From: a virus
Direction: 5' to 3' (one strand)
Virus record (IMG/VR): IMGVR_UViG_3300036852_000211
Location: 1-43,792 of that record
DNA: 43,792 nt
Shown here piece after piece: positions 6,726-43,792 of the stretch (positions within the stretch are counted from its first letter, which is position 1; every line of letters starts with the position of its first letter). Position numbers and translations under genes: made by a program. The notes below the pieces were generated by a model. That model searched no databases. It was not told the DNA's origin and was given only the letters and a program-made list of their open reading frames with translations.

Positions 6726-6827
6726 TCGCGCTCAGTCAGCGGCGCTCAATCAAGCAGGCTGACAGACACTCGGGCAAGACCGAGCAGAAGGACCGAAAGG
6801 CGCCGGATGCGCTAAGGGGCACACAGG

Positions 6828-6920: not shown

Positions 6921-7051
6921 CGGCCCGGTGCAGCGCACAGAAAGGGCCTACAAGCGGTAGTGGTTGGGCCTCGAACTCAGCGGATGAGGGATAGGTAAAA
7001 GTCGTTGTGTCTTTATGAGATCAGAAGAAGAGAAGAAGTACTGAGAGTTTC

Positions 7052-7447: not shown

Positions 7448-7456
7448 TGAGGCGAG

Positions 7457-7744: not shown

Positions 7745-7752
7745 GAAGTCTG

Positions 7753-15685: not shown

Positions 15686-15694
15686 CTATCTGTG

Positions 15695-20990: not shown

Positions 20991-22990
20991 TGGTCGAACC
21001 TGTTGCACCGGCCCTGGCGATGCCGACCGAACCCGTGGGGCCCGTACTCAAGATTCCCTTGTCTGACGAGAAGCTCGAACTCTTCCGCAAGGAAATCGAG
21101 CGCGCGCGCCAATTGCGCGAGAACAAGATTGTGGAATGGCAAGTTGAGGAGAATTTGAAACGGTACGCACCAGCCGCCAAAAATGCTGTCGGCGTAAATG
21201 TCGGCGTGGACTTTCGCGACGTTGAGCGAAAAGGCGCTGACCTCCTGTTCGACACACCAGTGATCGCTGTGCAACCGGGTCCAGATGGTGATGCGCAAGC
21301 TGCATTGTTACATCAAGAATTGTTGAACGCATTGCTTGCGGCTGACAAGATGAACGCGAAAGCGACAGCCTCCAAAGCGATCCAGAATTGTCTCATCGCG
21401 ATTCAACCAGCCTTCACGAAGATCGGGTATACCCCCACCATCGTAGACGTGCCTGACGCGATGACGGGTCTCCCGATTCCACAGGTCGTGCATGAGGAAT
21501 TTTTTTGGTCCCGTATCAGTGGGAAAGCGGGCCTTATCCCCGTTGATTTCCACGATACGGATTATGACAAAGCCCCTTGGCTTGGCTACGACTGGAAGAA
21601 ACCCGTCTCCCAAGTCAAGCGGGAATACAACCTACCGCCCGACTGGGAACCCACGAAAGGGGGCACGCGCGAAGTCACGTTTAGCGAAGGCAAGGAACCT
21701 GCTGGCGCCAGTGATCCCCAATGCACCGGCACCGAACTCTGGTATCGCGCCAGTCTTTTTGATGACACTGTCATCCATCCCGAACTCTTGCGCGTGCTGG
21801 TCTTGATCGATGGCTACGATCATCCTGTAAAACACGAGAATGCGCCATGGCAGGAACGCGACGGCCGTATCGTGCTCACACCGGACACGATCATTGGGTA
21901 TCCCATTCACCCGCTGGCGCTACGAGATTCTCCGGACAGTGCGTGGGTGCCCGCCGATTCTTCGCAGACGGGACCACTGACGAAAGAGATCAATACATAT
22001 CTCGATCAGACGAAAGCCAAACGTGATGCCAACCGCCTGATTCTGCTCGCCGCTATCGGCAAGATCGACATGGAGGCGCTAGCGACAATTAAGGAGATGG
22101 AGATTTTCAAGGGGATGGATATGAATATCATCCCCGTGTTGGAAGAAGCGCTTGCCTCAGGCAAGTCCAATACCGTCCTCCAGCAAGTGCCCACCTTGGA
22201 ATTGGGTCGTGAGACCTATCTGGGGCTCGAGATTTTCGAGCAGAAGCGTGATCAGATCTTGGGGATGACGGCCCCACAAGGCGGTACACAGAATAGGAAA
22301 GCGCGCACGGCTACGGAGATCGCGACGGTTGATCGACATTCGAATGCACGGTTCAATAAAGAGCGCAAACGTGACGAGGAATGGTTTCTGGCTGGCGTGC
22401 GTAAATTCTCCGCATGGCTTGTCCAGTACGGCGATCGGATCGCCGTCGATATTTTGGGCCGTTCGCGCGCGGCCCAATGGCTGCAATTTCGCCAGGCTGG
22501 TTTGTTAGGCCGGTTCACGTTCGATATCGCCATGGATTCCGGCAAATATATCGACGTTGAGGATGACCGGCGACAGTTCTTGCAAGTCATCAACTTCGCC
22601 GCCAAATCCCCATTTATCAATCAGCAGACGATGTGGCGCAAGTTCTGCGAAAAGTTCGGGTATGACCCCGCGGAATGGTTGGCGCAGCCGCAACCGGAGA
22701 AACCCGATCCGCCGGGGATGAACGTGGCTCTCAAAGGAGAGGACTTCATTGGCGCGCAAGGGCCGATCGTGCTCGATTTGCTCTCGAAAATGGGTTATCC
22801 AATTGATGGGAAGGCCGTGCAATTGGCTTTGGCACTTCAGAATCTAGGGGTTGGCGCACAGCCGACGAACGGGGCAGAAGCACCGGCGAATGGCAATCCC
22901 CAGACGGCGAGCACAGCGGATAAGGCGGACCGGCTCGACCAACATCAGCTTGACGAAACAGGAGCACTGAGTGGACCAGGTCCAATGTGA
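20987..22990 (+). CDS. Portal protein (P22-like)
   Basis: 667 residues, ATGA-coupled to the terminase nuclease. The length, the helical N-terminus (FRKEIERARQLRENKIVEWQ), the central conserved region and the crown-like C-terminal helices fit P22-type portals. Blocks such as WVPADSSQTGPLTKEINTYL and RTATEIATVDRHSNARF are typical of the helix that lines the DNA channel. Twelve copies would form the ring at one capsid vertex through which DNA is packaged and ejected. The C-terminal 50 residues are low-complexity. Confidence 0.92.
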   Translation: MMVEPVAPALAMPTEPVGPVLKIPLSDEKLELFRKEIERARQLRENKIVEWQVEENLKRYAPAAKNAVGVNVGVDFRDVERKGADLLFDTPVIAVQPGPDGDAQAALLHQELLNALLAADKMNAKATASKAIQNCLIAIQPAFTKIGYTPTIVDVPDAMTGLPIPQVVHEEFFWSRISGKAGLIPVDFHDTDYDKAPWLGYDWKKPVSQVKREYNLPPDWEPTKGGTREVTFSEGKEPAGASDPQCTGTELWYRASLFDDTVIHPELLRVLVLIDGYDHPVKHENAPWQERDGRIVLTPDTIIGYPIHPLALRDSPDSAWVPADSSQTGPLTKEINTYLDQTKAKRDANRLILLAAIGKIDMEALATIKEMEIFKGMDMNIIPVLEEALASGKSNTVLQQVPTLELGRETYLGLEIFEQKRDQILGMTAPQGGTQNRKARTATEIATVDRHSNARFNKERKRDEEWFLAGVRKFSAWLVQYGDRIAVDILGRSRAAQWLQFRQAGLLGRFTFDIAMDSGKYIDVEDDRRQFLQVINFAAKSPFINQQTMWRKFCEKFGYDPAEWLAQPQPEKPDPPGMNVALKGEDFIGAQGPIVLDLLSKMGYPIDGKAVQLALALQNLGVGAQPTNGAEAPANGNPQTASTADKADRLDQHQLDETGALSGPGPM

Positions 22991-23393
22991 GATATGCGGC
23001 GTGTTTTACGGGATTGGTGATTATCCGTTCTGTAAAGGCGGGCATGGACGTGCACGAGGGATCGTGGTCGGTGATGACATTCCTGGCGGGATGTGGCAGG
23101 AGAACGGCTTCTCTCAACCGATCAAGGTGCATTCCTGGTCCGAATTACATCGTCGCTTGGCGGCTGAAGGCTTGCAAATCGCCCCGCGCTATGTGGAGGG
23201 GTCCAAGCATTTGACGAAATGGGTCTCGGTGGATCTGGAAGCAGCCAAGGCGCTTGTATCTCGTGGTGTCACATCAACGACCGCACCGACCGGACCGGGC
23301 GGCTTGGCGCTTCTGGAGCCGCACCCGGATTATCCGATCACCGTGACCGATGCCGGGTGGACGATTACCAGCCGTGAGGCTACACGTGAGTAA
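22971..23393 (+). CDS. Small zinc-containing structural-module protein
   Basis: 140 residues from a GTG inside the 3' end of the portal gene, with GGAG upstream. CEICG at 6-10 and CKGGHG at 21-26 could form one zinc site, as in phage proteins encoded next to the portal. The middle (HSWSELHRRLAAEGLQIAPRY) resembles a conserved phage helix. Its role in the virion is unknown. Confidence 0.72.
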   Translation: MDQVQCEICGVFYGIGDYPFCKGGHGRARGIVVGDDIPGGMWQENGFSQPIKVHSWSELHRRLAAEGLQIAPRYVEGSKHLTKWVSVDLEAAKALVSRGVTSTTAPTGPGGLALLEPHPDYPITVTDAGWTITSREATRE

Positions 23394-23862
23394 GGGCTTT
23401 GCCGTCTTTGCCGCAATGCGGGGTACACCGCAGATGATGCTGACGTCGCCGCAGATCGCGCTGATTCTCGCACTCGAGCGCATCCTACAACAAGCGGGCC
23501 TCTGGCTCGTCTGCGCGCGATGTGCGCGCGTGCACGGGACCTACAAACATCTCGCTATGGCGAATGCCATCGAGGATGACATATGGAAGATCGATTGCCC
23601 GTGCATGACACGCCGATTCCCGCGCGCCGCTCTCGAGCACTCGATGACCCCAAGTGGGGATCTGCTGAAACTGGCGGAAACCCTCTTAGCTGGCACCCAG
23701 TTGGCAATCCGGTGCCCGGTGAAACGAACGGGGTGTCTGACGACCCCGTTGGACGTGACGCTAGAGCCGGACGGCGTGACGGCGCGGTGCCAGTGCTGGC
23801 AGATCGATCTGACAGCGGGAGCGTATCGGTTCCGGAAACAGCAGCCGGCGGTGCCCGCGTGA
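23386..23862 (+). CDS. Hypothetical Cys-rich protein in the head module
   Basis: 158 residues from a GTG that overlaps the previous gene. An N-terminal helix is followed by several Cys pairs (CARC, CPC, then CPVKRTGC and CQC), suggesting two metal sites. Genes of this kind lie between portal and scaffold in related layouts, but no function is known. It is GTGA-coupled to the next short gene. Confidence 0.62.
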   Translation: MSKGFAVFAAMRGTPQMMLTSPQIALILALERILQQAGLWLVCARCARVHGTYKHLAMANAIEDDIWKIDCPCMTRRFPRAALEHSMTPSGDLLKLAETLLAGTQLAIRCPVKRTGCLTTPLDVTLEPDGVTARCQCWQIDLTAGAYRFRKQQPAVPA

Positions 23863-23972
23863 CTTGTGGCTGTGGGCAGACCGTCGTGTATACACGTCCG
23901 AGCGGGCGACGGATTTGTGTGACCTGCGGAACACGCATCCGAGATGTAGTTCCAAAAATGGAGAGATTTTGA
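23859..23972 (+). CDS. 37-residue zinc-ribbon peptide
   Basis: It reads from a GTG overlapping the previous stop. CGCG at 3-6 and CVTCG at 20-24 define a minimal two-knuckle zinc ribbon with a short beta hairpin between. The coupling at both ends (GTGA and TTGA) supports translation despite the size. Confidence 0.6.
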   Translation: MTCGCGQTVVYTRPSGRRICVTCGTRIRDVVPKMERF

Positions 23973-24373
23973 ACAACGTGACGGTCCTGGATTCGACGAC
24001 GAGAGAAATTGATGATCGCGTTGATCTGTACATGCACACGTGGGGTGCCAACGACCATTGGAAGATCCGCCTCGTGGATCTCATGACTGGACGAGTATTG
24101 ACAAGGGAAGGGCAGGGCCGCTCAGCGCGTCTTGCAGCAGAACAAACGATGCGTGTGGAATTAGCAGAGAAACAAAAAGGTTCTGAGATGTCGATAACGC
24201 TCGCGGAACTTGAACTCGCCGCCCAGCGTGTACGGAATGTGTTGGATTCGCTCCGGGAAAGAGGGTACGGCCTGGAGGATGGCGACGAGGAATATATACG
24301 CGCGTTTGCGCTGGAGATCGTTGCTGCTGAAGCACGCGGTCGACGACAAGCAGAGCAGAATGCGATGCAGTAA
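23969..24373 (+). CDS. Hypothetical helical protein before the capsid leader
   Basis: 134 residues if the TTG overlapping the previous stop is used, with GGAGAG four bases upstream; a GTG at 23978 is the alternative. A beta-like N-terminal half (DDRVDLYMHTWGANDHWKIR) is followed by a long charged helix (LAELELAAQRVRNVLDSLRE). It is the last gene before the structured leader at 24385-24510. Confidence 0.6.
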   Translation: MNNVTVLDSTTREIDDRVDLYMHTWGANDHWKIRLVDLMTGRVLTREGQGRSARLAAEQTMRVELAEKQKGSEMSITLAELELAAQRVRNVLDSLRERGYGLEDGDEEYIRAFALEIVAAEARGRRQAEQNAMQ

Positions 24374-24384
24374 CCAAGTTTTGA

Positions 24385-24440
24385 CAGGACGCTAGGCCGA
24401 CGGGCCGAACCGCGGGTTGCCTTCCCGCGTGGCGTTCCTG
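24385..24440 (+). ncRNA. Three-way-junction RNA structure upstream of the scaffold gene
   Basis: An outer helix (24385-24392 with 24432-24440, one bulge) encloses two hairpins: GGCC/GGCC with a GACG loop (24395-24406) and CGCGGG/CCCGCG with a 7-base loop (24411-24429). It lies immediately before a long intrinsic terminator and the scaffold-coat genes. This placement suggests a structured leader that controls capsid gene expression, for example through binding of a virion protein or a ligand. It matches no riboswitch class that I recognise. Confidence 0.6.
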
Positions 24441-24460
24441 ACAACAGGCAGCAAGACCGA

Positions 24461-24510
24461 GGCGCTTGCGCGTCATGGATCGATTCCATGGCTGCGTGAG
24501 CGCCTTTTTT
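24461..24510 (+). terminator. Long intrinsic terminator upstream of the scaffold gene
   Basis: GGCGCT (24461-24466) pairs with AGCGCC (24499-24504), and CATGGA (24474-24479) with TCCATG (24485-24490) continues the same hairpin. Six T follow directly (24505-24510). Flanking CAGGCA (24445-24450) and TGCCTG (24513-24518) can also pair, which may be an alternative fold. It should end or attenuate transcription between the portal-side genes and the capsid genes. No separate promoter for the latter is obvious in 24511-24567. Confidence 0.8.
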
Positions 24511-24567
24511 GTTGCCTGTCTCTTTTCGAGCGCCGCGATGCGAGACAGCGGCAGACGGAGTGTACCG

Positions 24568-25575
24568 ATGGACCCAATCACGACCACACCGAATGTCCCA
24601 GCGACGACAGAGACACCATCTGTCGCCACGACGACGCCCAGTGTGTCGGCCGAGAAGCCTGCAGCGACGTGGGATGAAGCCTATGCCCGCGTGGATGCGG
24701 CGGCAGCCGCGGCCCCTGCCACCCCCGAGACGCCCGAGTCCCCGGCGTTAGAGCCTGCTCCTGCGACAACGGAGCCGCCGCCCGCAGAGGACGTCCCGGT
24801 CCCTGGTGAACCGCCGAAAGAGCGATGGCCCTCCATCCTTGAGAACGCGCGTAAGAAAGGGCACGAGGCGGCCATACAGGAATTTCAGCAGCAGTACGGC
24901 GGGGGCCTGGAAGTGGTCCAAGCCCTCCGATCCGACTTGCCAGGCACGCTCGGCCAACTCCTTGACGAAGCGATCACCTCCCCTGAACACGGAGCGAGTG
25001 TGCGCGCGATGTTGGGGCAAAAGCTGAGTAGCCTGCGCCGCCAGACGACACCGCCACCCGTGGAAGACGCCGAACCACAGATCTACGTGCAGGGCGAGAA
25101 CGGTGAAACGTTTGTCGATCCGGCGGCGCTGCCCAAACGCGATGCGTGGCTCGAGCGACGCCTCGAACGCAAGTTTGAGGAGAAATTCAAGCCGATCGCG
25201 GATCTGCAGCAACAAGTCGAACACGCGCAAGCCATCGCCAGATTTCAGGCGCAATCACAGCAGACCGTGACTCAACGCTTGGAGTTTTGGAAAACCCAAC
25301 CTGGGTTCACGACTCACGCCAAAGCCATTGCCGCGAAGCAGAAAGAACTCTTCGAGGCGAATCACGCGAATGGCATGGACGAGTGGACCGCGTTGGGGAT
25401 GGCGTACGCGCAGATCGTCCCGCCCCTACTGCAACAGCAACAGCAGACAGATTTGACGGCGACGGCGGTGGCGAAAGCGGCCGGCCGAAGCGATAACCCT
25501 GCGGCGTCGGCCCCCGCCCCGCCGCGCAGACCGAAGACGTGGGATGAAGCCTATGCCCAGGTCGGCTTGGTCTGA
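24568..25575 (+). CDS. Scaffolding protein
   Basis: 335 residues, start at MDPITTTPNV with CGGAG upstream; the longer frame from 24466 would read through the terminator. The first 110 residues are Pro/Thr/Ala-rich and disordered. A charged helical centre and a coiled coil (RLERKFEEKFKPIADLQQQV) follow, as expected of scaffolds that guide coat assembly and then leave. It precedes the coat gene. The sequence TWDEAYAxV occurs at residues 34-42 and again at the C-terminus. Confidence 0.85.
   Translation: MDPITTTPNVPATTETPSVATTTPSVSAEKPAATWDEAYARVDAAAAAAPATPETPESPALEPAPATTEPPPAEDVPVPGEPPKERWPSILENARKKGHEAAIQEFQQQYGGGLEVVQALRSDLPGTLGQLLDEAITSPEHGASVRAMLGQKLSSLRRQTTPPPVEDAEPQIYVQGENGETFVDPAALPKRDAWLERRLERKFEEKFKPIADLQQQVEHAQAIARFQAQSQQTVTQRLEFWKTQPGFTTHAKAIAAKQKELFEANHANGMDEWTALGMAYAQIVPPLLQQQQQTDLTATAVAKAAGRSDNPAASAPAPPRRPKTWDEAYAQVGLV
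24666..24688 (+). repeat. 23-base direct repeat, copy 1 (scaffold N-terminal part)
   Basis: The 23 bases GACGTGGGATGAAGCC..., encoding TWDEAYA, recur exactly at 25536-25558. Both copies are in frame, at opposite ends of the scaffold gene. Confidence 0.85.
25536..25558 (+). repeat. 23-base direct repeat, copy 2 (scaffold C-terminus)
   Basis: Exact copy of 24666-24688, coding for TWDEAYA seven to eight codons before the scaffold stop. Recombination between copies would delete almost the whole gene, so retention suggests that both are useful or the duplication is recent. Confidence 0.85.
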
Positions 25576-25592
25576 AGAAAGGACACGGATAG

Positions 25593-26561
25593 ATGCCAGT
25601 TCCGAACGTTGGACAGCGCGAGGCGGCGGCGTGGGAAGTCTACGTCGGCACCAAGCCCAACGACGCGATTCACGATGAGTACTCACAACTCGAACGCATG
25701 GAGCGCTCCAAAGCCTTCAAAGGCTTCACGGGCGGGAAGGCGTACATCGGGACGATTGAGTACAGACTGAATACGTCGGTCAAACCGATCACCGACACGG
25801 AAACGCTCGACACTACGCGAGTCGATGTGTTCGACGAGTTCGAATACGACGGCAAACAGTACGCGGGCGATTACGTCATCTCGACCAAAGAGGAAGCGGA
25901 AAACCGCGGCTCAGCGGCGAAGTTCGACCTGGACAAGGGCAAATCGGACAACTTGCTCAAGTCCCTGCGCTCACGAATCAATGCTGATATCTGTGGCGCG
26001 CAGAGCGGCAATGAAATCCTGGGCCTCCAGGATCTCGTCTCCGCCACACCCACGACGGGCAGCCCCGGCGCGGTTGATCGCTCCGTCCATACCTTCTGGC
26101 GCAATCAGCAGGTCACGGGGACGCAGTCCACGAGCGCGTTCGATAACCTCCGGGCCTCCATGCGCACGATCCATGCCGCCGCATCGAAAGGCATGGGCGT
26201 GATGGAGCCGGAATACTACCTGTCGACTTCCACGGTCGTGAATGGCTATGAATCGCTCCTCGTCGCGAATGAATTCGTGAGCGACAAGCGCGATTCCGGT
26301 CAAGTGGATGCCGGCATCGATCACGATGCGATGCGGTTCAAAAAGGCCCGCGTGGTCTGGGACCGTGACGTGCTCGCGGACACGATGTACGCGCTCAACA
26401 ACGAAAACCTGCTCATTGCGTACCAGACCGATTTCTGGATGAAGGCGTATGGCAAGGTGCGTCCTGGGAATCAACTCGTCGACATCCTCGCAGTTGAAAC
26501 GCAGTGCGCGTTGATCTCTAACAACCCACGCCATCTCGGCGTGATCACGGCCATCAGCTAA
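25593..26561 (+). CDS. Major capsid (coat) protein, HK97-fold type
   Basis: 322 residues, AAAGGA upstream of the ATG. Its place right after the scaffold gene, its size, and its sequence character fit a coat protein: an extended N-arm, an E-loop-like strand pair (FDEFEYDGKQYAGDYVIS), a spine helix region (NLLKSLRSRINADICGAQSG) and a beta-rich A-domain (RFKKARVVWDRDVLAD). Several hundred copies would form the icosahedral head. No clear N-terminal protease site is seen, so cleavage after assembly is not predicted. Confidence 0.88.
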   Translation: MPVPNVGQREAAAWEVYVGTKPNDAIHDEYSQLERMERSKAFKGFTGGKAYIGTIEYRLNTSVKPITDTETLDTTRVDVFDEFEYDGKQYAGDYVISTKEEAENRGSAAKFDLDKGKSDNLLKSLRSRINADICGAQSGNEILGLQDLVSATPTTGSPGAVDRSVHTFWRNQQVTGTQSTSAFDNLRASMRTIHAAASKGMGVMEPEYYLSTSTVVNGYESLLVANEFVSDKRDSGQVDAGIDHDAMRFKKARVVWDRDVLADTMYALNNENLLIAYQTDFWMKAYGKVRPGNQLVDILAVETQCALISNNPRHLGVITAIS

Positions 26562-26572
26562 AGGAGGACATC

Positions 26573-27304
26573 ATGCCTAACATTGCTGGATGGCCAATCG
26601 CAATCGGACAAGAGGCGTTCGTCTCTTCCACGAATCGTGTACATCCCCTCGGGCAACCGGGCGTCACGGCCGATGGCCGGTTTTTCCGTTATGTCCGCGC
26701 CGGCGCCTCCGCGCTCGTCGTGGGCAACGCCTTGCAGTCGCGCGTGCAAGATGTCGATCACGATGACATCACGGCGCGCGTCACTGCAGTAGGCGCGAGC
26801 ACTCTGCTCATCACGGCCGGTGCGTCTGGAGGCGCGCTTGACGTCGATGAATATGCCAATGGCTATGCAGTCGTCGATACGACTCCTGGCCTCGGCTACA
26901 CCTACAAGATCGCGGGCCATGCTGCGATTGCCGCATCCGCCAATGGCGAATTGGTCTTGGCGGACAACGAAACGGTGCAGGTCGCGTTGACAGCCTCGTC
27001 ACGCATCACCCTGGTCGCGAATCCGTACGACAAGGTGATTCAACATCCGGTCACAACGGCGTCAGGGATCACCGTGGGTGGGTGCACCTATCCGATCGCT
27101 GCCAATGAATACGGGTGGATTCAAACGGGTGGCGTCGGGGCCGCGTTGATTGCCGGGACACCCGGTGTCGGCCAACCCGTGACGGCGGTCGGTGCGGTGG
27201 CGGGCGCGTTGTCCGTCCATTCGGCCGAACTGTCGCACGTCGCCTACATGATGGTCACCGGACGCGATACGAAGGTGCTGCCGGTGTTCTGGGTGCTGTA
27301 CTAA
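26573..27304 (+). CDS. Putative capsid decoration protein
   Basis: 243 residues, with a strong AAAGGAGG ribosome site consistent with high expression. The sequence is Gly/Ala/Val-rich and all-beta in appearance (FFRYVRAGASALVVGNALQS, ASGITVGGCTYPIAANEYGW). Proteins of this kind follow the coat gene in many phages and cement the shell. A 13-bp hairpin follows its stop. Confidence 0.72.
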   Translation: MPNIAGWPIAIGQEAFVSSTNRVHPLGQPGVTADGRFFRYVRAGASALVVGNALQSRVQDVDHDDITARVTAVGASTLLITAGASGGALDVDEYANGYAVVDTTPGLGYTYKIAGHAAIAASANGELVLADNETVQVALTASSRITLVANPYDKVIQHPVTTASGITVGGCTYPIAANEYGWIQTGGVGAALIAGTPGVGQPVTAVGAVAGALSVHSAELSHVAYMMVTGRDTKVLPVFWVLY

Positions 27305-27311
27305 CGCAGAT

Positions 27312-27347
27312 GGTGGGGCTGGTCTATCGGACCGGCCTCACCCATTT
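27312..27347 (+). terminator. Strong hairpin after the capsid genes (partial terminator candidate)
   Basis: A stem of about 13 pairs, including wobbles, runs from 27312-27324 to 27330-27342 with a 5-base loop (TATCG) and is followed by CATTTC. The T run is weak, so it may slow transcription or protect the capsid mRNA end rather than stop all transcripts. Confidence 0.5.
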
Positions 27348-27358
27348 CAAAGAGTCGC

Positions 27359-27607
27359 ATGATGACGAAAAAGAAAAGTGTTGCCGAACGGGTCAAAGCT
27401 GCTGCGACGGCCCTCGTCGCCCCTGCTGAGACGGAAGCCGATGACGGATTGCTTCCGGTTCTCGTCGAAACCGTAGAAGGCAAGGTGGAGTCAGCGCGTG
27501 CAGAAGCGCCCCATGAGCGCTCATTCCATGTTCGGGTGAATGGCCTGCAGTTCTACCACTGCGGCACGGCCGATGATGGCACGTGGATTTATCGACAGGA
27601 GAAGTGA
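27359..27607 (+). CDS. Hypothetical protein in the head-tail module
   Basis: 82 residues. A basic helical N-terminus (MTKKKSVAERVKAAATALV) leads to a C-terminal beta-rich part (SFHVRVNGLQFYHCGTADDG). No family is recognised. The stop overlaps the next start (TGATG). Confidence 0.65.
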   Translation: MMTKKKSVAERVKAAATALVAPAETEADDGLLPVLVETVEGKVESARAEAPHERSFHVRVNGLQFYHCGTADDGTWIYRQEK

Positions 27608-28254
27608 TGGCGAAATTTCATAGCCCCAATGATCCCGACACGCCAGATCAGGACGTCTCGGCTGGACCAGGCGTCGATCCGACGGCGATCGCCATCGCGG
27701 TGGCGGCTGCGATGGCTCCGCTCATCCAGCAGATGCAACAGGGACAAGCGGAGATGATTGCGGCGCTCCTCAAGGGCCAGACGGTCAGTACGGCAGAAGC
27801 CGTCAAGGCCGCTCGGACGAAGCGGCCAGAATCGTATCTCGGAGATTTTCCATTCCCTGGGATGAGTCATTTCTCTCCCACCGGCGAGAAGCTGCCCCCC
27901 TTGCGGTGTGAGTCCTTTCTCGGCTACTGGGACGAGGATGAGAACGGGCAACTCACAATCTATGCCGGGTATCCCTATGTCGCCGATGAGTACGGCGGTT
28001 GCACGCTCGAAGAGCGGACCTTGCTGAACAATCTTGAGGCGGGTGTCTATCGCGCCAAACGGCGTGATGGGATGGAGGGAATCATCCGTGTGCAGATCAA
28101 GCATGACATCGATGGGCAGCCGACGCGGCTCGTCGTGGCGCCACCGAAAACGTGGTTGACCATGCAGATGAAAAACATGGTGGGCGGCGTGGATTTTCTG
28201 CGCCAGCTCCAACCTGACGTCGCGCAACGGGTGCGCGATAAGGATGCGGCGTAG
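27607..28254 (+). CDS. Conserved structural-module protein of unknown role
   Basis: 215 residues from the TGATG overlap. Residues 20-70 form an Ala/Gln-rich helix (IAVAAAMAPLIQQMQQGQAE). The rest is a mixed domain (CESFLGYWDEDENGQLTIYA, GVYRAKRRDGMEGIIRVQIK). It sits between capsid decoration and the tail adaptor, so a head-completion role is possible but not shown. Confidence 0.65.
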   Translation: MAKFHSPNDPDTPDQDVSAGPGVDPTAIAIAVAAAMAPLIQQMQQGQAEMIAALLKGQTVSTAEAVKAARTKRPESYLGDFPFPGMSHFSPTGEKLPPLRCESFLGYWDEDENGQLTIYAGYPYVADEYGGCTLEERTLLNNLEAGVYRAKRRDGMEGIIRVQIKHDIDGQPTRLVVAPPKTWLTMQMKNMVGGVDFLRQLQPDVAQRVRDKDAA

Positions 28255-29208
28255 ATGACGCGGTTGGATCTCCTCACGAAGCTGGCGCGAGCGACCGGTA
28301 AGAATGCCACGACGCTGGACAGTCTCACGCAAAGCCGGTTGTTAGATCATCTGAACAATCGGCATCGCGAGATTCTCTCTCGGCCGGGATGTGATGGATT
28401 ACGTCGTCGGACCACGACGCTGCTGAGTGTGGTCGATCAAGCCGCGTACGCTCTGCCTAATGTCGAGGATGTCCTGGAGATTCGCGAGACGACCAATGAC
28501 CGCACCCTGGGGCGGCGTTCCATGAGTCGGTATCGGACCTTCAATCCCGATCCAGCAGTGAGTACCGGCACGCCAGAGGCGTACGTGCCGAGCGGGTATC
28601 AACAGGTGGCGAAACAACCCGCCAATGCCAGTGAACTCTTCGTGAAATCATCCACGACCGATACGACCCAAACCGCCTATATCGAAGGTGCAATTACGGG
28701 TGGCTATCCTCGTTCAGCGAGTATCACGCTTACAGGGACGACGGCGGTGAGCCTGAGCACCACGATTACTACATGGGAGCGCATCGACAAGTTCTATCTC
28801 TCGGCGGTACCAGTGGGCGTCATCACGTTACATGAAGATAGCGGCACGGGCACGGAGCTTGCGCGGATTGGCATTAATCAGACGGTCCAGCGTTACTACA
28901 CCTTCTATTTCGATCCGACGCCGAGCGCCGCGATCACCTACGACCTGGACCTCGAATATGCGATCACCGACCTCGCCCAGAACACCGATGAGCCCTGGTT
29001 GCCAACCGACTTCCACGACCTGTTGTTTTATGGCGGGCTGATGGATGAATTGGTGAAGACCGATGACACACGGTTTGCGTGGGCTGAGCGTCGGTGGAAT
29101 CAGCGCTTGGGTGATCTGAACTTACATCTCGCACGGCAAGCGATGGAGACCACACCCAGCGGTCGCACGTCACGACTCGGGGCGTGGGTGGATGGAGGGG
29201 CATTCTAG
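28255..29208 (+). CDS. Head-to-tail adaptor (P22 gp4-like)
   Basis: 317 residues, starting right after the previous stop. The N-terminal helical segment (LLDHLNNRHREILSR), the strand-rich middle and the C-terminal helices (DFHDLLFYGGLMDELVKTDD, WAERRWNQRL) follow the plan of phage tail-accessory/adaptor proteins of the P22 gp4 type, which attach below the portal and receive the tail. Order on the genome (adaptor then nozzle) agrees. Confidence 0.72.
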   Translation: MTRLDLLTKLARATGKNATTLDSLTQSRLLDHLNNRHREILSRPGCDGLRRRTTTLLSVVDQAAYALPNVEDVLEIRETTNDRTLGRRSMSRYRTFNPDPAVSTGTPEAYVPSGYQQVAKQPANASELFVKSSTTDTTQTAYIEGAITGGYPRSASITLTGTTAVSLSTTITTWERIDKFYLSAVPVGVITLHEDSGTGTELARIGINQTVQRYYTFYFDPTPSAAITYDLDLEYAITDLAQNTDEPWLPTDFHDLLFYGGLMDELVKTDDTRFAWAERRWNQRLGDLNLHLARQAMETTPSGRTSRLGAWVDGGAF

Positions 29209-32667: not shown

Positions 32668-33803
32668 TGCCGATCTACGACCTCCCAACCGCGAAGCAGA
32701 GAGTCTCAGCCTACGCGACGCCGAAGTACGGTCGCGGCCCAACGGAGGACGAATTCGCCCGGATTGGCTCAGCCATCGGGTACGGTGGCGGGGACATTAC
32801 CGATGAGATGTTGAATCAAGCCTATGGAGAGGTGGACCGGATCGCGAGTTCCTACGGTGCGACATCGCCACAACCGCAAGCGCCCTTGCCAGCGCCGGAT
32901 CTCGACCTCGAGGCAGCCAAGCAGCAAGTCACGGGGTATGCGACCCCACGATACGGACGAGGCCCAACGGAACAGGAATTCGCAACCATTGGCCAGAACG
33001 TCGGCTATCAGGGCGGGTCCGTCACGCAGGACATGCTGCAACGGGCTTTTGGCGAAGTCGACCAACTCGCGCGCGCTCAGGGCGCCCCCAATGCCCCTGC
33101 GGCCCCTGCAGCGCCCGCTCAGACCGCGATCTCGCCTCCGGCAGGGGTCAATATTCCCCCCAATCTACAGGCCACCGTGGGGAATCTCTTCGCCTCACCA
33201 CCGACGAGCCCTGTCCAAAGTGTGTATCAGGATTCACTGTTGTCGTTGATTCAGAATGCCCAACGCCCGCCCAGTCTCACTGATCCGACGCTGCAACCTG
33301 CGTCAGATGTCTATCGAGCTAGTCAACAGCGAGCGACTGAGCGCGCGCGCAGCGCGTTAGCCGAACGCGCGGCGGCGACTGGCACGCTGGGTGCGGGTGG
33401 CTTCGATGCCGGTGTGCAGCAACTCTATAACGAGGAAGGCCGGAATATTGCCGAGTACAACGCGAATCTGGTCCTCGGTGAAATGCAGGCGCGTCGGCAG
33501 CAATTGATGCAAGGACTCGCCTTGGCCCAAGCGACGGGGAATGCTGAGGCGGCACGGCAACTCCAAACGCAATTGGCGCTGCTCCAAGAGTCGATGGGCG
33601 AGTCGCAGTTTGGGCGTGAACTGGGATTCAGAGAAAAGGCCCTCGGTCAGCAAGGCACACTCGGACGCGGCGAGCTCGCCCTCCGGCTCTTGGCGCTGCT
33701 CACGGGCAATGCCTACAACTACGACGTGCTTGGGAGCAATAACGCCTTCCGGCTGAGCGATTCCAACCAGCGCGCCCTTGAACTCTTACTTGGAGGGCTG
33801 TGA
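32667..33803 (+). CDS. Ejection-module protein with two 60-residue tandem repeats
   Basis: 378 residues (TAATG start). Residues 5-64 and 80-139 are clear copies of one unit (YATPKYGRGPTEDEFARIG and YATPRYGRGPTEQEFATIG) at an offset of exactly 75. A Pro/Ala linker and a long Gln/Ala-rich helical half (RARSALAERAAATGTLGAGG) follow. Repeated units with a helical body suit internal virion proteins ejected into the cell. The GRGPTExEF motif itself is unfamiliar to me. Confidence 0.65.
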   Translation: MPIYDLPTAKQRVSAYATPKYGRGPTEDEFARIGSAIGYGGGDITDEMLNQAYGEVDRIASSYGATSPQPQAPLPAPDLDLEAAKQQVTGYATPRYGRGPTEQEFATIGQNVGYQGGSVTQDMLQRAFGEVDQLARAQGAPNAPAAPAAPAQTAISPPAGVNIPPNLQATVGNLFASPPTSPVQSVYQDSLLSLIQNAQRPPSLTDPTLQPASDVYRASQQRATERARSALAERAAATGTLGAGGFDAGVQQLYNEEGRNIAEYNANLVLGEMQARRQQLMQGLALAQATGNAEAARQLQTQLALLQESMGESQFGRELGFREKALGQQGTLGRGELALRLLALLTGNAYNYDVLGSNNAFRLSDSNQRALELLLGGL

Positions 33804-34507
33804 TGCCTTGGCTTGGCAAATTACTCGGCGGACTCTCAGTTGGAGCGGCGCCTTTTACTGGTGGGACATCACTGGCGTGGCTTCCTGCTGTCCTTGGAGC
33901 AGGGAGTGCCGCCGCAAGTGCTATTGGGACAGGACTTTCTCAAAATCGTCAAGGCCAAAACACAGCCGCACAACAGCAGAATCAATTGCTGGCGCAACTC
34001 TTCGGCACACAGCAGGGAGCAGCACTCTCCGCCTTACAGGGCGAGGAAGCGGGCAAGCTGAACCGTGCGGGCCTTGATCTGAGCCAGCGGCAATTTGCTC
34101 TCAATGCCCCCAGTGTGCGCGGCCGTCAAGCAGTGGCCGGATCATTACTCCAAAACTTGCAACCGGCCACGATGAGCGGTGGGTCCGCACGCCTACAGGC
34201 GGCGACTCCGCGGATCAGCGGGGGACTGAATGCCTCAGTGCTCAGTCCTGACGCTCGGCAAGTAGGGCAATTCATGGTCCAACAAGCACTTACCGGCCAA
34301 CAGCAGGGCGACGTCTTTGAGTCCATTCCGGCCACGGATTTTCAGGGTGGACGGCTCACGCCGCCAGCGATGACCGCGTACCAGCAACCAGGCAAGATGG
34401 AGTCAATCCTCGGTCTGCTTGGGCTCACCCAGCCATTGATTGAAGAGTTCCGCAGGACGAGAAGGCGCTATAACCCGCTCGAGCCTTCAAAGACGGCGGG
34501 AGGCTAA
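33803..34507 (+). CDS. Putative ejection protein with hydrophobic N-terminus
   Basis: 234 residues from a TGATG overlap. Residues 5-45 are Gly/Ala-rich and hydrophobic (LGGLSVGAAPFTGGTSLAWL), consistent with a membrane-inserting segment. The remainder is Gln/Ala/Leu-rich helix, as in P22-type pilot proteins gp7/gp16/gp20 that form the DNA-delivery channel. Only the pattern and the position support this. Confidence 0.63.
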   Translation: MPWLGKLLGGLSVGAAPFTGGTSLAWLPAVLGAGSAAASAIGTGLSQNRQGQNTAAQQQNQLLAQLFGTQQGAALSALQGEEAGKLNRAGLDLSQRQFALNAPSVRGRQAVAGSLLQNLQPATMSGGSARLQAATPRISGGLNASVLSPDARQVGQFMVQQALTGQQQGDVFESIPATDFQGGRLTPPAMTAYQQPGKMESILGLLGLTQPLIEEFRRTRRRYNPLEPSKTAGG

Positions 34508-34509
34508 TC

Positions 34510-35553
34510 ATGCCTTTGGGCATTCCCGGACACATCGGCCAAATCGCGCGAGAGCAACTCGACGAACAACTCAAGCAGCAACTCGAACAGCAACTTGTCG
34601 CGCAACGGATCAAAGAGTTCGAGGCTGAACAGCGTGTGCAACAAGAACGGCTTGATCTCGATCGCCAGCAACTTGCTGGACAAGCCGCGCATCAAGGTCG
34701 CATGGAACGTGCTGCAAGTAATCGCACAGGCGTCGAAGAGATGCAATTGACGCGGGCGGCCATGGATAAGGCTGAACGGGCGGCACAACTTGATGCCCTT
34801 GCGAACGATCCGAATCAATCGCCCCAAGTGCGACAACTCATTCCCTTACTGAGAGCTGGCGGAATCTCGAATATTCCCGCTGACGTCCTGACGTCGCCGA
34901 AGTCCCCGAAATACCGCGTGACTGTGCCTGGTGCGAAGGGTGAGCCCATCTCCAAGTTGTATAGAGAAGAGGAATTAGAGCAGGGCGTCACAGAGTACCG
35001 CGCACCAGAGAAACCGTCGCGCACGGAGTTGACGCCTGGACAGGCGTTCAGCGCCGAACGTCAGCTTCGCAATGAATTTCGGATCGAGAGTAAAGCGGCG
35101 CGCGAAGTCACCACACAATTGGGCCTGATGCGTGCCGCCCTGACCGCTGCGAAACAGGGCGATATGGCCGCTGGGTCTCAAGGCGTCCTTGTGACATTTC
35201 AAAAGATTCTCGATCCAACTAGTGTGGTCCGTGAATCAGAATATGCACGATCAGCTGCCGGACAATCACTCTTGTCACGGATCGAAGGCGGGTATCAACG
35301 TTTGGTAAAGGGCGGTGCGGGCGTGCCCGTGCAAGAGTTGGAAAAGTTTGTTTCCTTGGCAGAACAGTTTGCCAAGAATCAACAGGCCAACGCGAACGAA
35401 TTCAAGAAACAGGCGGAAGCCATTGCCGTTGATTACAGGCTCGACCCAGAGCGGATCACACGAGAGATTGGCGAGCTAGAGACAAAAGCTCCTCCTGAAC
35501 CAGGCGCGAAACCTCGACTTCGATTTGATGCGAAGGGGAATCGCATCCCGTAA
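34510..35553 (+). CDS. Putative internal virion (ejection) protein, coiled coil
   Basis: 347 residues. The first 70 form a continuous Gln/Leu/Glu helix (REQLDEQLKQQLEQQLVAQR). The centre holds SKLYREEELEQGVTEYR and the end is helical with a basic tail. It lies between two other ejection-like genes and the stop overlaps the next start (TAATG). No enzymatic motif is seen. Confidence 0.63.
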   Translation: MPLGIPGHIGQIAREQLDEQLKQQLEQQLVAQRIKEFEAEQRVQQERLDLDRQQLAGQAAHQGRMERAASNRTGVEEMQLTRAAMDKAERAAQLDALANDPNQSPQVRQLIPLLRAGGISNIPADVLTSPKSPKYRVTVPGAKGEPISKLYREEELEQGVTEYRAPEKPSRTELTPGQAFSAERQLRNEFRIESKAAREVTTQLGLMRAALTAAKQGDMAAGSQGVLVTFQKILDPTSVVRESEYARSAAGQSLLSRIEGGYQRLVKGGAGVPVQELEKFVSLAEQFAKNQQANANEFKKQAEAIAVDYRLDPERITREIGELETKAPPEPGAKPRLRFDAKGNRIP

Positions 35554-37923: not shown

Positions 37924-38148
37924 ATGTATTGGTGGACAGAACGGGAAGATGGGCGGATGGCCGTGCCCGTGCCCGTATGGGTCCGGCATACGACGCAGGC
38001 TACAACCTTCGACCGCTGCGAAATTAAGGTAACCCGCGTGCCTGGGCACCTCGGATGGCGACGACAGCTCGTCATCCGGCAGCACGGCGAAGAATTGAGA
38101 CAATTCGCATCGAACAGAATAGGAGTCGGTAATCATGCTCAGCATTGA
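37924..38148 (+). CDS. Small hypothetical protein after the lysozyme
   Basis: 74 residues starting MYWWTEREDGRMAVPV. The product is basic and beta-like (VRHTTQATTFDRCEIKVTRV). The start is uncertain, and a 20-codon GTG frame at 37853-37915 lies in between and is probably not a gene. The 3' end overlaps the next gene by 14 bases. The function is unknown. Confidence 0.45.
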   Translation: MYWWTEREDGRMAVPVPVWVRHTTQATTFDRCEIKVTRVPGHLGWRRQLVIRQHGEELRQFASNRIGVGNHAQH

Positions 38149-38992
38149 GGCCCTTGAAAACACCCCGCGTCATCTGCGAGCAGATCCACGCTACAGCGAA
38201 GACAAACGGATCAGGGATCAGGCGTGGGATGATTGGCGCGCAAGCCATCCGGAAGCTGCTGAGGCTTTTCCGATCGAGATGCAACAAGTCATTGATGAGG
38301 GATATGCCGCCAGACTCGCAGCAGGAGACACACGCGCCGCCTCGCTCTTTGCCCGCCTTGTCGCCTTCCGCATGAATTCCCAAGGCCGGACTGACAAGCC
38401 AGGATGGCTGAAGAAGGGTGGCGGCAACAATGTGGATGGGTACTCCGTAGATGCCATCGTGCTCAACGCCAACCCAAACGACCTATTCAATGTGATTGAT
38501 CTCGTGCGTGCTGCTGAGGCGCCTAGTGCGAGTCCGCAATGGAATGGCCCACTGCCGCGCCGCACCATCGATGTATGGGATGCGCCGCGCCAGCTGTCAA
38601 CGGCGGACCTGACGTACTTGAAGCCCGTCGGCCCAGGTCCGCCGCCGCCACCTCCACCGCCGCCATTGAAATCACGCGCCCAATTCGCAACCGAGTTCAG
38701 CACCGTGAATGCTTTCTATGGCAACCAAGCTGGGCTCCAACGGGTTGGAGGGATGGTCAGCGGCGTCGATGCCTCGGTCTTCGCCATTTTGCGCAAGAAA
38801 GCAGATGGCGAATCAATCGATGATCTGGCTGTGCGCAATGCCTGCCGCGCTGTACTCCAGCTCCAGTGTGATGTGCAATCGATGATTCAGTGGGGGTATG
38901 ACCTCATGGCGGGGAACACCGATGCACAAGTCATCAAGGCCATCCGCCAGAGTGACGAATGGAAAGCCAAGCATCCGGGAGAAACGCCATGA
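38135..38992 (+). CDS. Hypothetical protein with polyproline linker (late/lysis module)
   Basis: 285 residues, AGGAG nine bases upstream of the ATG. The N-terminal domain (about 1-160) contains KPGWLKKGGGNNVDGYSVDA and NDLFNVIDLVRAAEAPSASP, a pattern I have seen in phage proteins near endolysins. A run of nine or so Pro residues (about 169-180) joins it to a helical C-terminal domain (QLQCDVQSMIQWGYDLMAGN). It may be a second cell-wall-related or virion protein. The enzyme class is not evident. Confidence 0.65.
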   Translation: MLSIEALENTPRHLRADPRYSEDKRIRDQAWDDWRASHPEAAEAFPIEMQQVIDEGYAARLAAGDTRAASLFARLVAFRMNSQGRTDKPGWLKKGGGNNVDGYSVDAIVLNANPNDLFNVIDLVRAAEAPSASPQWNGPLPRRTIDVWDAPRQLSTADLTYLKPVGPGPPPPPPPPPLKSRAQFATEFSTVNAFYGNQAGLQRVGGMVSGVDASVFAILRKKADGESIDDLAVRNACRAVLQLQCDVQSMIQWGYDLMAGNTDAQVIKAIRQSDEWKAKHPGETP

Positions 38993-39255
38993 ATGCTCTG
39001 TGGATGTGGATTCGGAGCAATACCCAAGGGATCACCGAAGCGGCACGGCAAGTGCTCTATATGCTCCTGGGCTTCGAGGTATTGCGGAACATGAAAGGCG
39101 AGCCCTGGACGGATGCACAGACGGGCCTTGTCTTGGCGGCTCTCTCAGGCATCCTCGCGCTCATCGCCGCGAAGACGAACGTTTCTGCACCAAAAGTGGA
39201 GGAGCGGATCAAAGAGGCGCACGCGAAAGGTGTCGTTGTAGGTTCGAACCAATAG
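38989..39255 (+). CDS. Small membrane protein, second holin candidate
   Basis: 88 residues from an ATGA overlap. Two moderately hydrophobic regions (AARQVLYMLLGFEVLR and GLVLAALSGILALIAAK) with a charged C-terminus (EERIKEAHAKG) suggest a holin-like protein or a membrane anchor. It overlaps the previous gene in the same late transcript. Confidence 0.6.
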   Translation: MNALWMWIRSNTQGITEAARQVLYMLLGFEVLRNMKGEPWTDAQTGLVLAALSGILALIAAKTNVSAPKVEERIKEAHAKGVVVGSNQ

Positions 39256-39578: not shown

Positions 39579-40988
39579 TTATGGTCGCACTTGCCCTAAG
39601 AGCGCTCGCAGATAAGTCACACGAGCCGCGACGCTCGGATCAGTCGCTCGATTTTGCATCTGATCCGGGTCGGTCGAGAGATCGTAGTACTCACGCTCTC
39701 CAGTCAGCAAATACTCTGCATACATCTCGGCGATCGTGTACACCGCTTGCATGCGTGAGCCCGGAGGCGCCGCGCCAAGGATTTCGACGTACGCACCTTC
39801 GCGCCATGGCGCAGACGGGTCTGCGAGTAGCGGGAACAGATCCATGCCTTTTGTTGGAAACGGAGGCGGCACGCCCGCATACGAAAGGATGGTACGCGGC
39901 AGATCCAGAGAGGAGACCACATGTGTGCTGTCCACACGAGACGTGATGCCCGGTGCTCGAATTAGGAGGGGCACACCGACACAATCGAGGTAGACGCAAT
40001 TCTTCAGGTGCCCGTTCGACCATCGGCGCTGATAGTAGTTCATGCCGTTGTCGCTGGTGAACATGATCAGTGCGCCGTCAAGGCGCCCCGTATCACTGAG
40101 AGCCTGCAGCACGCGCTGAATCCCGCGATCGACGGATAACAGTGTTTCATGCTGCCGGCGCCGCAAGGCATCGCGTTGAGCGATTTGGGACGGCGTCCAG
40201 AACGGAAACGCTTGCATATAGGCGGGCTTGTCACTGAGATCCTGTTCGCCCCACGATGGCGGCCGAAAGTTCGGGAGGCTTGAAAAGGTTCCCGCATCGC
40301 GAGCAGCGGCCGTCGCCGGTGCGTGGGGCGCGAAGGGTGCCACATAGAGAAACAAGTCATTTATCGAGGAGCGGATCGCCGTATCCGCTTCGCCAAACAC
40401 GTAGTCCGTGGAATAGACCGGTGGCATGATTTCCAATCGGTCCTCAGTCACGACCACATAGCCAGGGTTGTACGCCTGTTGCGTCTTGAAGACGCGCCAG
40501 CGATCCCAGCCCAAGGGGACATATGGCCATGGAGTCAGCTTCTCGTACTGGTTCAGGTATTTGCCGAGGAGTGCCGTATCCCATCCGGCATCATCCAGCG
40601 CGGTCGCGAGTGTTCGCGAGTCATCGAATACGGTCGCAGCACGATCAGACAAGTTGACAACGCCATGTTGAGACGGTGCCAGCCCGGTAAAAAAGGACGC
40701 TCGAGACGGCGCGCAAATTGGGTGGATGACGTGTGTCCGGGTAAATTGCACGGTGCCCGCCCCAATGGAGTTCATGGCGACCAGCAGTTCTGGGGACATA
40801 TCATCGGTCATGACGACCACCACGGTCTTGGCGTCGGGAGGAGCCTGCATGGTGACGACATTCGGCGTGGACGATGAGGCCACACTGGCGCCCGTCGGCT
40901 GAGACGGGCTGAGCGTGCAGGCCAAGAGGAGAAGCGCGATGCCGGGGATCAGTTTCATGCGAGTGAGCGTAGACTGGATGGTAGCCAT
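39579..40988 (-). CDS. Lipoprotein sulfatase (S1 family, N-acetylglucosamine-6-sulfatase-like)
   Basis: 469 residues when started at the ATG at 40988, which has AGGAG ten bases upstream; the ATG at 40958 lacks one, and the longest frame starts at 41075. A signal peptide with lipobox LLAC puts the lipidated Cys at residue 24, followed by Thr, so outer-membrane lipoprotein is likely. The sulfatase core is intact: metal ligands in VVMTDDM (D62, D63), CAPSR at 92-96 (Cys to formylglycine, then ASFFTG), GKYLNQY at 142, H222 in FAPHAP, SDNG at 312-315 and K329. It should remove sulfate from sulfated sugars at the cell surface, once activated by a host maturation enzyme. It reads opposite to the late genes. 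Confidence 0.93.
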   Translation of the reverse strand: MATIQSTLTRMKLIPGIALLLLACTLSPSQPTGASVASSSTPNVVTMQAPPDAKTVVVVMTDDMSPELLVAMNSIGAGTVQFTRTHVIHPICAPSRASFFTGLAPSQHGVVNLSDRAATVFDDSRTLATALDDAGWDTALLGKYLNQYEKLTPWPYVPLGWDRWRVFKTQQAYNPGYVVVTEDRLEIMPPVYSTDYVFGEADTAIRSSINDLFLYVAPFAPHAPATAAARDAGTFSSLPNFRPPSWGEQDLSDKPAYMQAFPFWTPSQIAQRDALRRRQHETLLSVDRGIQRVLQALSDTGRLDGALIMFTSDNGMNYYQRRWSNGHLKNCVYLDCVGVPLLIRAPGITSRVDSTHVVSSLDLPRTILSYAGVPPPFPTKGMDLFPLLADPSAPWREGAYVEILGAAPPGSRMQAVYTIAEMYAEYLLTGEREYYDLSTDPDQMQNRATDPSVAARVTYLRALLGQVRP

Positions 40989-41061
40989 GTGGTCGCAGCT
41001 CCTATCTGCGGTAGCGTGGTCAGGGACGTGCGCCGCATCCATCGCGGCGCGCGTTCCGTTT

Positions 41062-41091
41062 ACGCTAGCACACATTTCTTGCGCCTGACAA
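41062..41091 (-). promoter_or_regulatory. Possible sulfatase promoter
   Basis: On the minus strand, TTGTCA (41091-41086) and TAGCGT (41067-41062) are separated by 18 bases and lie about 75 bases before the start codon. The -35 box is good and the -10 box weak. The wider gap 40989-41315 has no gene. It also holds small inverted repeats GCCTAA/TTAGGC (41132-41158) and CTTGAC/GTCAAG (41192-41212) of unknown role. Confidence 0.4.
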
Positions 41092-41315: not shown

Positions 41316-41891
41316 CTACCCGTGTCGTCGCCCGTCTCGTCGCGTTGCTGCCCGCCGTTGTAGCTCAGCTTTCAGAGAGTCAACAAGTCCTTGTCGTAGG
41401 TCTGGCGGTAAGATTCCTTCACGGAGCATCACCGCGATCCCATAGAGCCATTCGCGATCCGGTGCCTGCAAGCCGCGCCACAGTTCGTGCAAATTCCGGG
41501 TCAGGCCAGCGGCGGGCTCCTCGTCCGCGAAAAACGCGACGAAAGCGCACAAAGCGCGGGTCACGCTGAGCGGCCAGCGATGTAATGCCCGATAGAGCGC
41601 AGCCTCGTCAGCATTGAGTTGTTTGATGCTGCTGTCCGGAGGCACGACGAGATTGGCGACGGGGACACCTGACAGCTCTGAGATCGCCTCAAGCATAGGC
41701 AAGGTCACATGCCGCTCACCCTTGACGTAGGGGGTGACCCCTGATGGCCTAAAGCCCATTCGTTCGGCCAAGGCTTTCCTAAATCCTCTGCGCTCGGCAA
41801 GTTCCCGCAAGCTGTCGCTGACGCGTTCCGAGAGGGTTTGATTATGCACCACGATCAGGGGGTTTGTGGAATAAACTACGCGGTTCGTCAA
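41316..41891 (-). CDS. Prophage repressor, XRE-type helix-turn-helix
   Basis: Up to 191 residues from a TTG at 41891; GTG codons at 41852 and 41849 are alternative starts, and none has a good ribosome site. The DNA-binding domain is ELAERRGFRKALAERMGFRP with VTPYVKGERHVTLPMLEAIS. The C-terminal 90 residues are helical and lack the Ser-Lys dyad of LexA-like S24 repressors, so SOS self-cleavage is not expected. It faces the cro-like gene across the operator region. It is expected to hold the early promoter off and to keep the lysogenic state. Confidence 0.85.
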   Translation of the reverse strand: MTNRVVYSTNPLIVVHNQTLSERVSDSLRELAERRGFRKALAERMGFRPSGVTPYVKGERHVTLPMLEAISELSGVPVANLVVPPDSSIKQLNADEAALYRALHRWPLSVTRALCAFVAFFADEEPAAGLTRNLHELWRGLQAPDREWLYGIAVMLREGILPPDLRQGLVDSLKAELQRRAATRRDGRRHG

Positions 41892-41956: not shown

Positions 41957-42220
41957 ATGAAACAGAAGGCGAAAAAGCCCACCTATCGTTCCCTCCATGA
42001 ATGGCTCGACCGGACTGGAACGAAGCAGCAAACGCTTGCACGTCGTGCGGGGGTGACAGACTCGGCCCTGTCCATGTTGCTTCGTGGTTCCAGGCGATGT
42101 TCGGTTGTAGTTGCCCTGAGATTGGAAGAGATCACGGGCGTGCCTGTGAAAAACTTGGTGGCGTGGCCACGAGTTCACTCAGAGCGAATTGAGGCGAAAC
42201 AGCAGGCGAAAGTGGCGTAA
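41957..42220 (+). CDS. cro: Cro-like helix-turn-helix regulator
   Basis: 87 residues. A classic HTH (TKQQTLARRAGVTDSALSML, then LRGSRRCSVVVALRLEEITG) is followed by GVPVKNLVAWP. That same tail motif is in the opposing repressor (GVPVANLVVP), so the two proteins share an ancestor and probably compete for the same operator. No C-terminal regulatory domain is present. It is the first gene of the early operon, as in lambda-like switches. Confidence 0.82.
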   Translation: MKQKAKKPTYRSLHEWLDRTGTKQQTLARRAGVTDSALSMLLRGSRRCSVVVALRLEEITGVPVKNLVAWPRVHSERIEAKQQAKVA

Positions 42221-43546: not shown

Positions 43547-43729
43547 ATGGCCGCCCTCGCACTCTCTTATCTCCTCGCGCGCTGCCGACAGGTCGGTCAT
43601 TGCTGGGTCAATGGGCATCGGCCGGTGACGCGGAAGGCCATGGGCCGCGTGTACGAGTTGGCCTGCCGTGAATGTCGGATGGTCTTCTGGCAACGCGGGC
43701 AGTTGCGGCGGAAGGCGGGAGAGCGATGA
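43547..43729 (+). CDS. Small basic Cys-containing protein at the circle junction
   Basis: 60 residues from the ATG just after the previous stop, no clear ribosome site. It has CRQVGHCWVNGHR and CRECRMVFWQRG, giving a Cys/His set that could bind zinc. The stop overlaps the ATG of the next gene, which continues at base 61 of the window. Its 3' end is duplicated at 1-64. Confidence 0.65.
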   Translation: MAALALSYLLARCRQVGHCWVNGHRPVTRKAMGRVYELACRECRMVFWQRGQLRRKAGER

Positions 43730-43792
43730 AGGCCCCGAGCATCGTCCTCGTCGGTGTTGCGCTTGTTTTCCTGGGCATGCTGGCGAGTTGGG
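43666..43792. repeat. Terminal direct repeat, right copy (circular-contig overlap)
   Basis: Exact copy of bases 1-127. When the two copies are merged, the gene starting at 43547 ends normally and the gene starting at 43726 (equivalent to base 61) continues intact at the left end. The non-redundant genome is therefore 43,665 bp. Confidence 0.93.
43726..43792 (+). CDS. 5' end of the small membrane protein encoded at 61-291 (partial at contig edge)
   Basis: The frame starting at the ATG of the ATGA overlap is identical to bases 61-127 and is cut by the end of the window. It is the same gene as the one at 61-291 on the circular molecule. Confidence 0.85.
   Translation, partial: MKAPSIVLVGVALVFLGMLASW

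Follow-up and report, generated by a model that had tools for sequence, protein, structure and literature searches.

Sulfatases gate access to sulfated polysaccharides. Among the described enzymes, BT4656 (5g2v) and BT3177, an S1_11 enzyme (7p24), have the S1 fold in common with the phage protein considered here (Z 41-42 over 400 residues); however, they are 21-24% identical to it and are not phage-borne, and their substrate pocket may differ. VIA scored 6hr5, the S1_25 sulfatase module of Formosa agariphila, above all others (Z 45.5, 354 residues); it is one module of a rhamnosidase/sulfatase protein and has 21% identity to the phage sulfatase. The GKYLN / PPGWDEW type of cellular PF00884 sulfatase shares its domains, their order and the core residues with the phage protein, but its genes are chromosomal and mostly encode CCPSR, whereas the phage protein has CAPSR and is changed at 19 of 68 columns conserved in the family. 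The giant-virus sulfatases found in BFVD (Satyrvirus, Yasminevirus, Tetraselmis virus 1) also have the same fold, but they belong to viruses of eukaryotes and are 13-18% identical to the phage sulfatase. PHROG 19870, a phage protein family with no function listed, was matched by the sulfatase with an E of 3.4e-21, the best stretch covering only residues 241-482 of the 498-codon frame, and sulfatase-like proteins are thus already present in a phage catalogue.

The literature searched for phage and viral sulfatases yielded few papers of relevance; true phage sulfatases are hardly discussed in it, and several phage "sulfatase" mentions refer to proteins with a formylglycine-generating enzyme (FGE) domain. 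Passages of PMC10232697, PMC11318856 and PMC12724379 deal with such domains, which belong to proteins distinct from sulfatases, and PMC10029852 cites a sulfatase among the viral auxiliary genes of deep groundwater. The sulfatase described here is a real but rarely reported viral cargo. It is encoded on the minus strand (39579-40988) of IMG/VR virus record IMGVR_UViG_3300036852_000211, the whole 43,792 nt of which were analysed and are referred to below as the window.

The sulfatase gene product

The sulfatase frame (39579-41075, minus strand) runs uninterrupted for 498 codons. The best candidate start, and the one used in the sequence-only reading, is the ATG at 40988, which gives a 469-aa protein and is preceded, at a distance of 10 nt, by AGGAG, a possible ribosome-binding site (40999-41003, minus strand); the next in-frame Met, at 40958, gives a 459-aa form, whose numbering is used for all residues below. 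The protein, annotated as an S1 (PF00884) sulfatase with an SGSH_C domain, matched PF00884 (E 3e-28, 99.4 bits against a cut-off of 25), PF16347 (E 8.7e-11, above cut-off) and, weakly, PF01663. It scored far under the cut-offs of the NCBIfam equivalog models, including those for choline-sulfatase and PehA, and thus no named enzyme fits it.

The top PDB match by sequence was 5g2v, the N-acetylglucosamine-6-sulfatase BT4656 (E 6.3e-25). An AlphaFold2 model, built from 52 sequences, had a mean pLDDT of 90.8 and a pTM of 0.88, and with it Foldseek found 412 PDB matches at E<=0.001, BT4656 again being the first (E 5.5e-29). In VIA, which like Foldseek compares whole folds, the Z scores were 45.5 (6hr5), 41.9 (5g2v) and 41.2 (7p24) over 354-400 residues; no entry among the VIA matches was titled as a bacteriophage protein, which says little. 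Structures of SulfAtlas S1_11 (6-O-sulfated GlcNAc/Gal) stood near the top by VIA, but S1_25 scored higher, and the nearest folds point to a substrate that may resemble GlcN- or Gal-6-sulfate.

It had been claimed from the letters alone that the minus strand carries an intact S1-type sulfatase with the motifs CAPSR, TDD, GKYLN and SDNG. Each of these was located in the protein (CAPSR at 82-86, TDD including D52 and D53, GKYLN at 132-136, SDNG at 302-305), and the protein has retained every one of the 11 core positions (DD, C-x-PSR, K, H, DN, K). Across the 52 aligned rows, D52 and D53, the presumed metal ligands (40800-40805), R86, K133 of GKYLN (40560-40562), H212 of PHAP (40323-40325), D303 and K319 (40002-40004) are invariant (52/52 each); C82, P84, S85 and N304 are conserved in 49 to 51 of the 52 rows (C82 in 51, N304 in 50) and are kept in the phage protein. 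The formylglycine motif C82-A-P-S-R86 lies at 40701-40715 and D303 N304 at 40047-40052, all of these being on the minus strand. The roles given to the core residues, in binding metal and sulfate, are those general for S1 sulfatases.

The Pfam domain above cut-off, the C-x-P/A-S-R motif, the residues for metal and sulfate binding and the full-length alkaline-phosphatase-superfamily fold all agree, and the gene almost certainly encodes an intact S1 sulfatase, as the sequence-only reading had held. Since the protein is 41% identical over 453 residues to a cellular sulfatase and has a confident full-length S1 fold, the identification is not a matter of chance. The concern that the core might prove non-functional in a structural alignment was not borne out by the sequence alignment taken together with the fold: the core residues are kept, and the enzyme is probably active in a suitable host.

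The N-terminus of the protein, MATIQSTLTRMKLIPGIALLLLAC, has the form of a signal sequence, with a hydrophobic stretch followed by LLAC, and a simple scan flags it as "lipo". This putative signal peptide (codons 1-24, 40917-40988, minus strand), seen in the sequence and in a hydrophobicity scan, ends in this LLAC, which resembles a lipobox with its Cys. Residues 1-40 are poorly defined in the AlphaFold2 model, as expected of a signal peptide and linker. The lipobox signal reported earlier was therefore found again, and the sulfatase is likely to be an exported lipoprotein; its placement in the outer membrane is plausible and depends on the host.

Genome organization and related phages

The first and last 127 bp of the record (1-127 and 43666-43792) are identical direct repeats, and hence the record most probably represents a whole circular phage genome, 43,665 bp in length. 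On the plus strand lie the late genes: the terminase (19390-20990) comes first, the major capsid protein (25593-26561, matching phrog_9953) further on, and an endolysin (phage lysozyme, 37428-37856) last. Past the lysozyme, the sulfatase is reached after two small uncharacterized genes on the plus strand, the first for a phage protein of unassigned function without a usable family match (38135-38992) and the second for a small protein convergent with the sulfatase (38959-39255); phage genes thus flank the sulfatase on both sides. Upstream of it is a gene for a CI-like HTH repressor (41316-41891, minus strand), with HTH_31/HTH_3 scores just below the Pfam cut-offs, and divergent from the repressor is a gene for a Cro-like HTH protein (41957-42220, plus strand) with PF01381 above cut-off. 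The sulfatase does lie beside the repressor, as had been claimed, being downstream of it on the same strand across a gap of 327 bp. No promoter stands above chance in the gap upstream of the sulfatase.

Elsewhere in the window, the large terminase is split into two ORFs, as it is in G002 (26270-27880) and G014 (33015-34842); in ten relatives it is a single ORF matched by both halves of the window's split terminase. Three successive large ORFs at 14135-18483 (plus strand; 516, 453 and 477 aa) each have an apparent Sec signal peptide, and they gave no Pfam or PHROG match and no homologue among 13 relatives. The second of these has 35% identity to part of a podovirus protein (MW202608.1), and the third shows a weak likeness to decoration proteins of phages (E 0.003-0.01). 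It would be odd for virion-like proteins to be exported, as these seem to be. The large ORF at 20948-22990 had no match among named phages, and megablast with positions 1-25000 gave none either.

Capsid scans yielded 50 viral records, many of which are fragments, and PF00884 was found in none of the 50 (0/5 and 0/45); the scan of the 45 records detected, as expected, the two sulfatase-bearing viral records L018 and L019, which are described below. The absence is solid for those relatives whose records are near-complete, including two with end repeats (G007 and G018), and less so for the fragments. Since none of the capsid-related records has a sulfatase, the gene is accessory, lineage-specific cargo, with the absence from related phages by which a moron is recognized. 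Among the long relatives the closest is G002 (capsid 83% and repressor 45% identical), in which the repressor adjoins the same Cro-like gene; homologues of that gene are also found in G015 and G018. Downstream of the G002 repressor there is, in place of the sulfatase, a small ORF and a gene for a T5orf172/MUG113 protein (20402-21130, which is L009 402-1130; minus strand). It may be that this position after the repressor receives cargo genes, though a comparison of two genomes is too small to claim as much.

Relative to the late block, the early/regulatory block has opposite orientations in G002 and the window. Three relatives, G002, G015 and G018, have proteins of 358-516 aa that look glycosidase-like by eye (L008 4018-5568, L183 7913-8989, L193 5883-7130) and are encoded close to either the tail/lysis end or the early genes. 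Pfam gave no glycosidase family for these proteins, and a PDB sequence search with those of G015 and G002 returned nothing useful.

Possible role in the infected host

Lysogenic conversion had been proposed for this gene. The part of the proposal that stood is the repressor with its divergent Cro-like gene, a pair that fits and suggests a temperate phage. On the other side, there is no above-chance promoter and no tyrosine integrase (PF00589) was found in the window, nor in G002 (five of 14 other capsid-related records examined have one), and neither a serine recombinase nor a partition gene was seen among the ORFs scanned, a subset of those in the window. Lysogenic conversion by the sulfatase is plausible. 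Neither FGE nor anSME was found in the window, and since the phage has neither of these, the activity of the sulfatase would depend on a host maturase, a need that had been foreseen; the host may, as had been proposed, be a sulfatase user.

With regard to the host, the capsid alignment (A3) searched against 84,980 species genomes gave no relatives among 289 candidate stretches. A more sensitive capsid search hit a single genome among 395 of Gemmatimonadota and a single one among 396 of Actinomycetota; the contigs concerned, only 7.8 and 4.7 kb long, are too short for either hit to decide the host. PF03781, a domain broader than true FGE, was present in 113 of 150 Gemmatimonadota genomes; only nine listed places had E < 1e-74, and in three genomes (G147, G194 and G199) such a place is beside a sulfatase match. 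Among the eight genomes with near relatives of the sulfatase, MAGs that may be incomplete, PF03781 was found in three and the anSME cut-off was passed by none; the MAG holding the nearest cellular relative, L070, does have a PF03781 protein.

The reading that we prefer, and to which as a whole chain we give about an even chance, is that the gene is a long-resident moron for an exported, lipid-anchored, formylglycine-type S1 sulfatase. Its position, behind the repressor on a shared strand, would allow expression of the gene in the lysogen or at an early stage of infection. A host maturase would turn Cys82 of the CAPSR motif into formylglycine, and the protein, judging from its sequence and model, would be exported, acylated at the lipobox Cys and tethered to the envelope by its disordered linker. 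There it would take sulfate off a sulfated sugar, as the observed fold and core suggest, and the infected cell would gain sulfur or carbon from a sulfated polysaccharide, or an altered surface glycan. A membrane-tethered sulfatase given by a phage and relying on the formylglycine machinery of the host could alter the diet of the infected bacterium or the surface seen by other phages. Formylglycine maturation also leads to a clean prediction, which is that the gene pays only in hosts with FGE or anSME.

Instead of the infected cell, the enzyme might serve the phage, by desulfating a capsule or envelope polysaccharide of the host so that progeny escape or competing phages are unable to bind. We consider this possible but rather doubtful: the same genome has three further large exported-looking proteins, of which one matches a segment of a podovirus protein and another is weakly decoration-like, and the sulfatase is among or near virion genes in the two other sulfatase-bearing viral records, but the window's gene is outside the late operon, on the opposite strand and by the repressor, and a signal peptide speaks against a virion part. 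It is unlikely that a sulfatase with a re-shaped pocket desulfates the host surface glycan, giving the lysogen a new coat that keeps out other phages, and makes up an exported surface-remodelling set together with the proteins encoded at 14135-18483.

Divergence and origin of the sulfatase

When viral contigs were scanned with the single sequence, no relative of the sulfatase emerged. Scanning with an alignment instead detected L018 and L019, two viral loci, together with 330 cellular relatives; the 80 best of the latter were retained. The nearest cellular relative among these 80 is L070, a sulfatase of the GKYLN / PPGWDEW type from Gemmatimonadetes MAG JACCXV010000137.1, with an identity of 41-44% (41% over 453 aa) and a setting that looks chromosomal by eye. 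A 106-row tree groups the phage sulfatase with five other sequences, three from Gemmatimonadota, one labelled "uncultured proteobacterium" and one from a deltaproteobacterium (six rows in all; SH-aLRT 80-88, none at the tool's 95 mark). Phylogeny had been suggested as a way to the donor clade; Gemmatimonadota are indeed the nearest kin, but the grouping stays below the 95 support mark, and a Gemmatimonadota-like donor is a best guess, not a result.

A column of the 52-row alignment was counted as conserved when at least 90% of the other rows agreed in it; of 68 such columns the phage sulfatase departs at 19, more than any of the other 51 sequences. Next come two sequences with 11 departures in 70 columns and 10 in 69, and the 51 others have a median of three. 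The changed columns include G309Y and H311R, close in sequence to D303 N304 of the core, and with so many conserved columns changed the substrate may have shifted from that of the family.

The same 19 changes, G309Y and H311R among them, would also suit an S1-fold hydrolase whose substrate is not a sulfated sugar, such as a phosphonate ester, a phosphate ester, or choline sulfate or another small sulfate ester. Phosphonate monoester hydrolases and choline sulfatases reach a VIA Z of about 37 with the model and there is the weak PF01663 match; however, the best structural matches are carbohydrate sulfatases and the NCBIfam choline-sulfatase and PehA scores are far under the cut-offs, and we regard this explanation as improbable. 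That the gene is a decaying passenger without activity is very unlikely. Its end branch in the 106-row tree is long (1.31 changes per column) and its departures from conserved columns are the most numerous, but about 470 codons run without a stop or frameshift, the fold is of high confidence, and all core residues are kept, where decay is not expected to spare exactly the core. A spared core in a changed surround rather suggests an active enzyme under other constraints.

As to long residence in the phage, on which the preferred moron reading draws, the GC content is 0.593 for the sulfatase gene and 0.590 for the genome, and the codon-use correlation between gene and phage is 0.83, the fifth highest of 20 genes; no signature of recent transfer was found in either measure. 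Since GC and codon use match the phage, the gene is probably long resident, and not a recent or chimeric join. Another record, L002, is identical to window positions 19050-28706 over 9,657 bases (100%), and so the phage has been recovered twice; this match excludes the sulfatase region, of which no independent copy was found in other records. It is hardly credible that a bacterial sulfatase was fused to phage sequence in assembly, the chimeric join against which the sequence-only reading had warned, for although the region occurs in no second record, the identical 127-bp ends make the contig circular, phage genes lie on both sides, GC and codon use are phage-like, and the 9.7-kb stretch in L002, which lacks the sulfatase region, belongs to the same phage.

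Sulfatases in other viral records

Like the window, L018 (IMGVR_UViG_3300036861_001017) and L019 (IMGVR_UViG_3300031576_000023) carry a sulfatase of the same type, 33-35% identical and with the core residues kept, but in these two records the gene lies among or near virion genes, whereas that of the window adjoins the repressor. L018 is split from the window sulfatase by a branch of support 99, and L019 is without clear separation. Because of the branch that sets L018 apart, this enzyme type seems to have entered viruses at least twice. Weaker sulfatase matches were found in six unannotated gut phage records in GenBank (phage status as recorded).

Directly upstream of the L018 sulfatase, among tail-like genes, there is a signal-peptide protein (5429-8014) in which PF18582, the middle domain of hydrazine synthase alpha, was detected (2.3e-10). 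The sulfatase of L019 (2488-3783) starts with QLESRDLL, which resembles the planctomycete extracellular motif (PF07595, E 0.0068, under the cut-off) and hints that the host of L019 may be a planctomycete.
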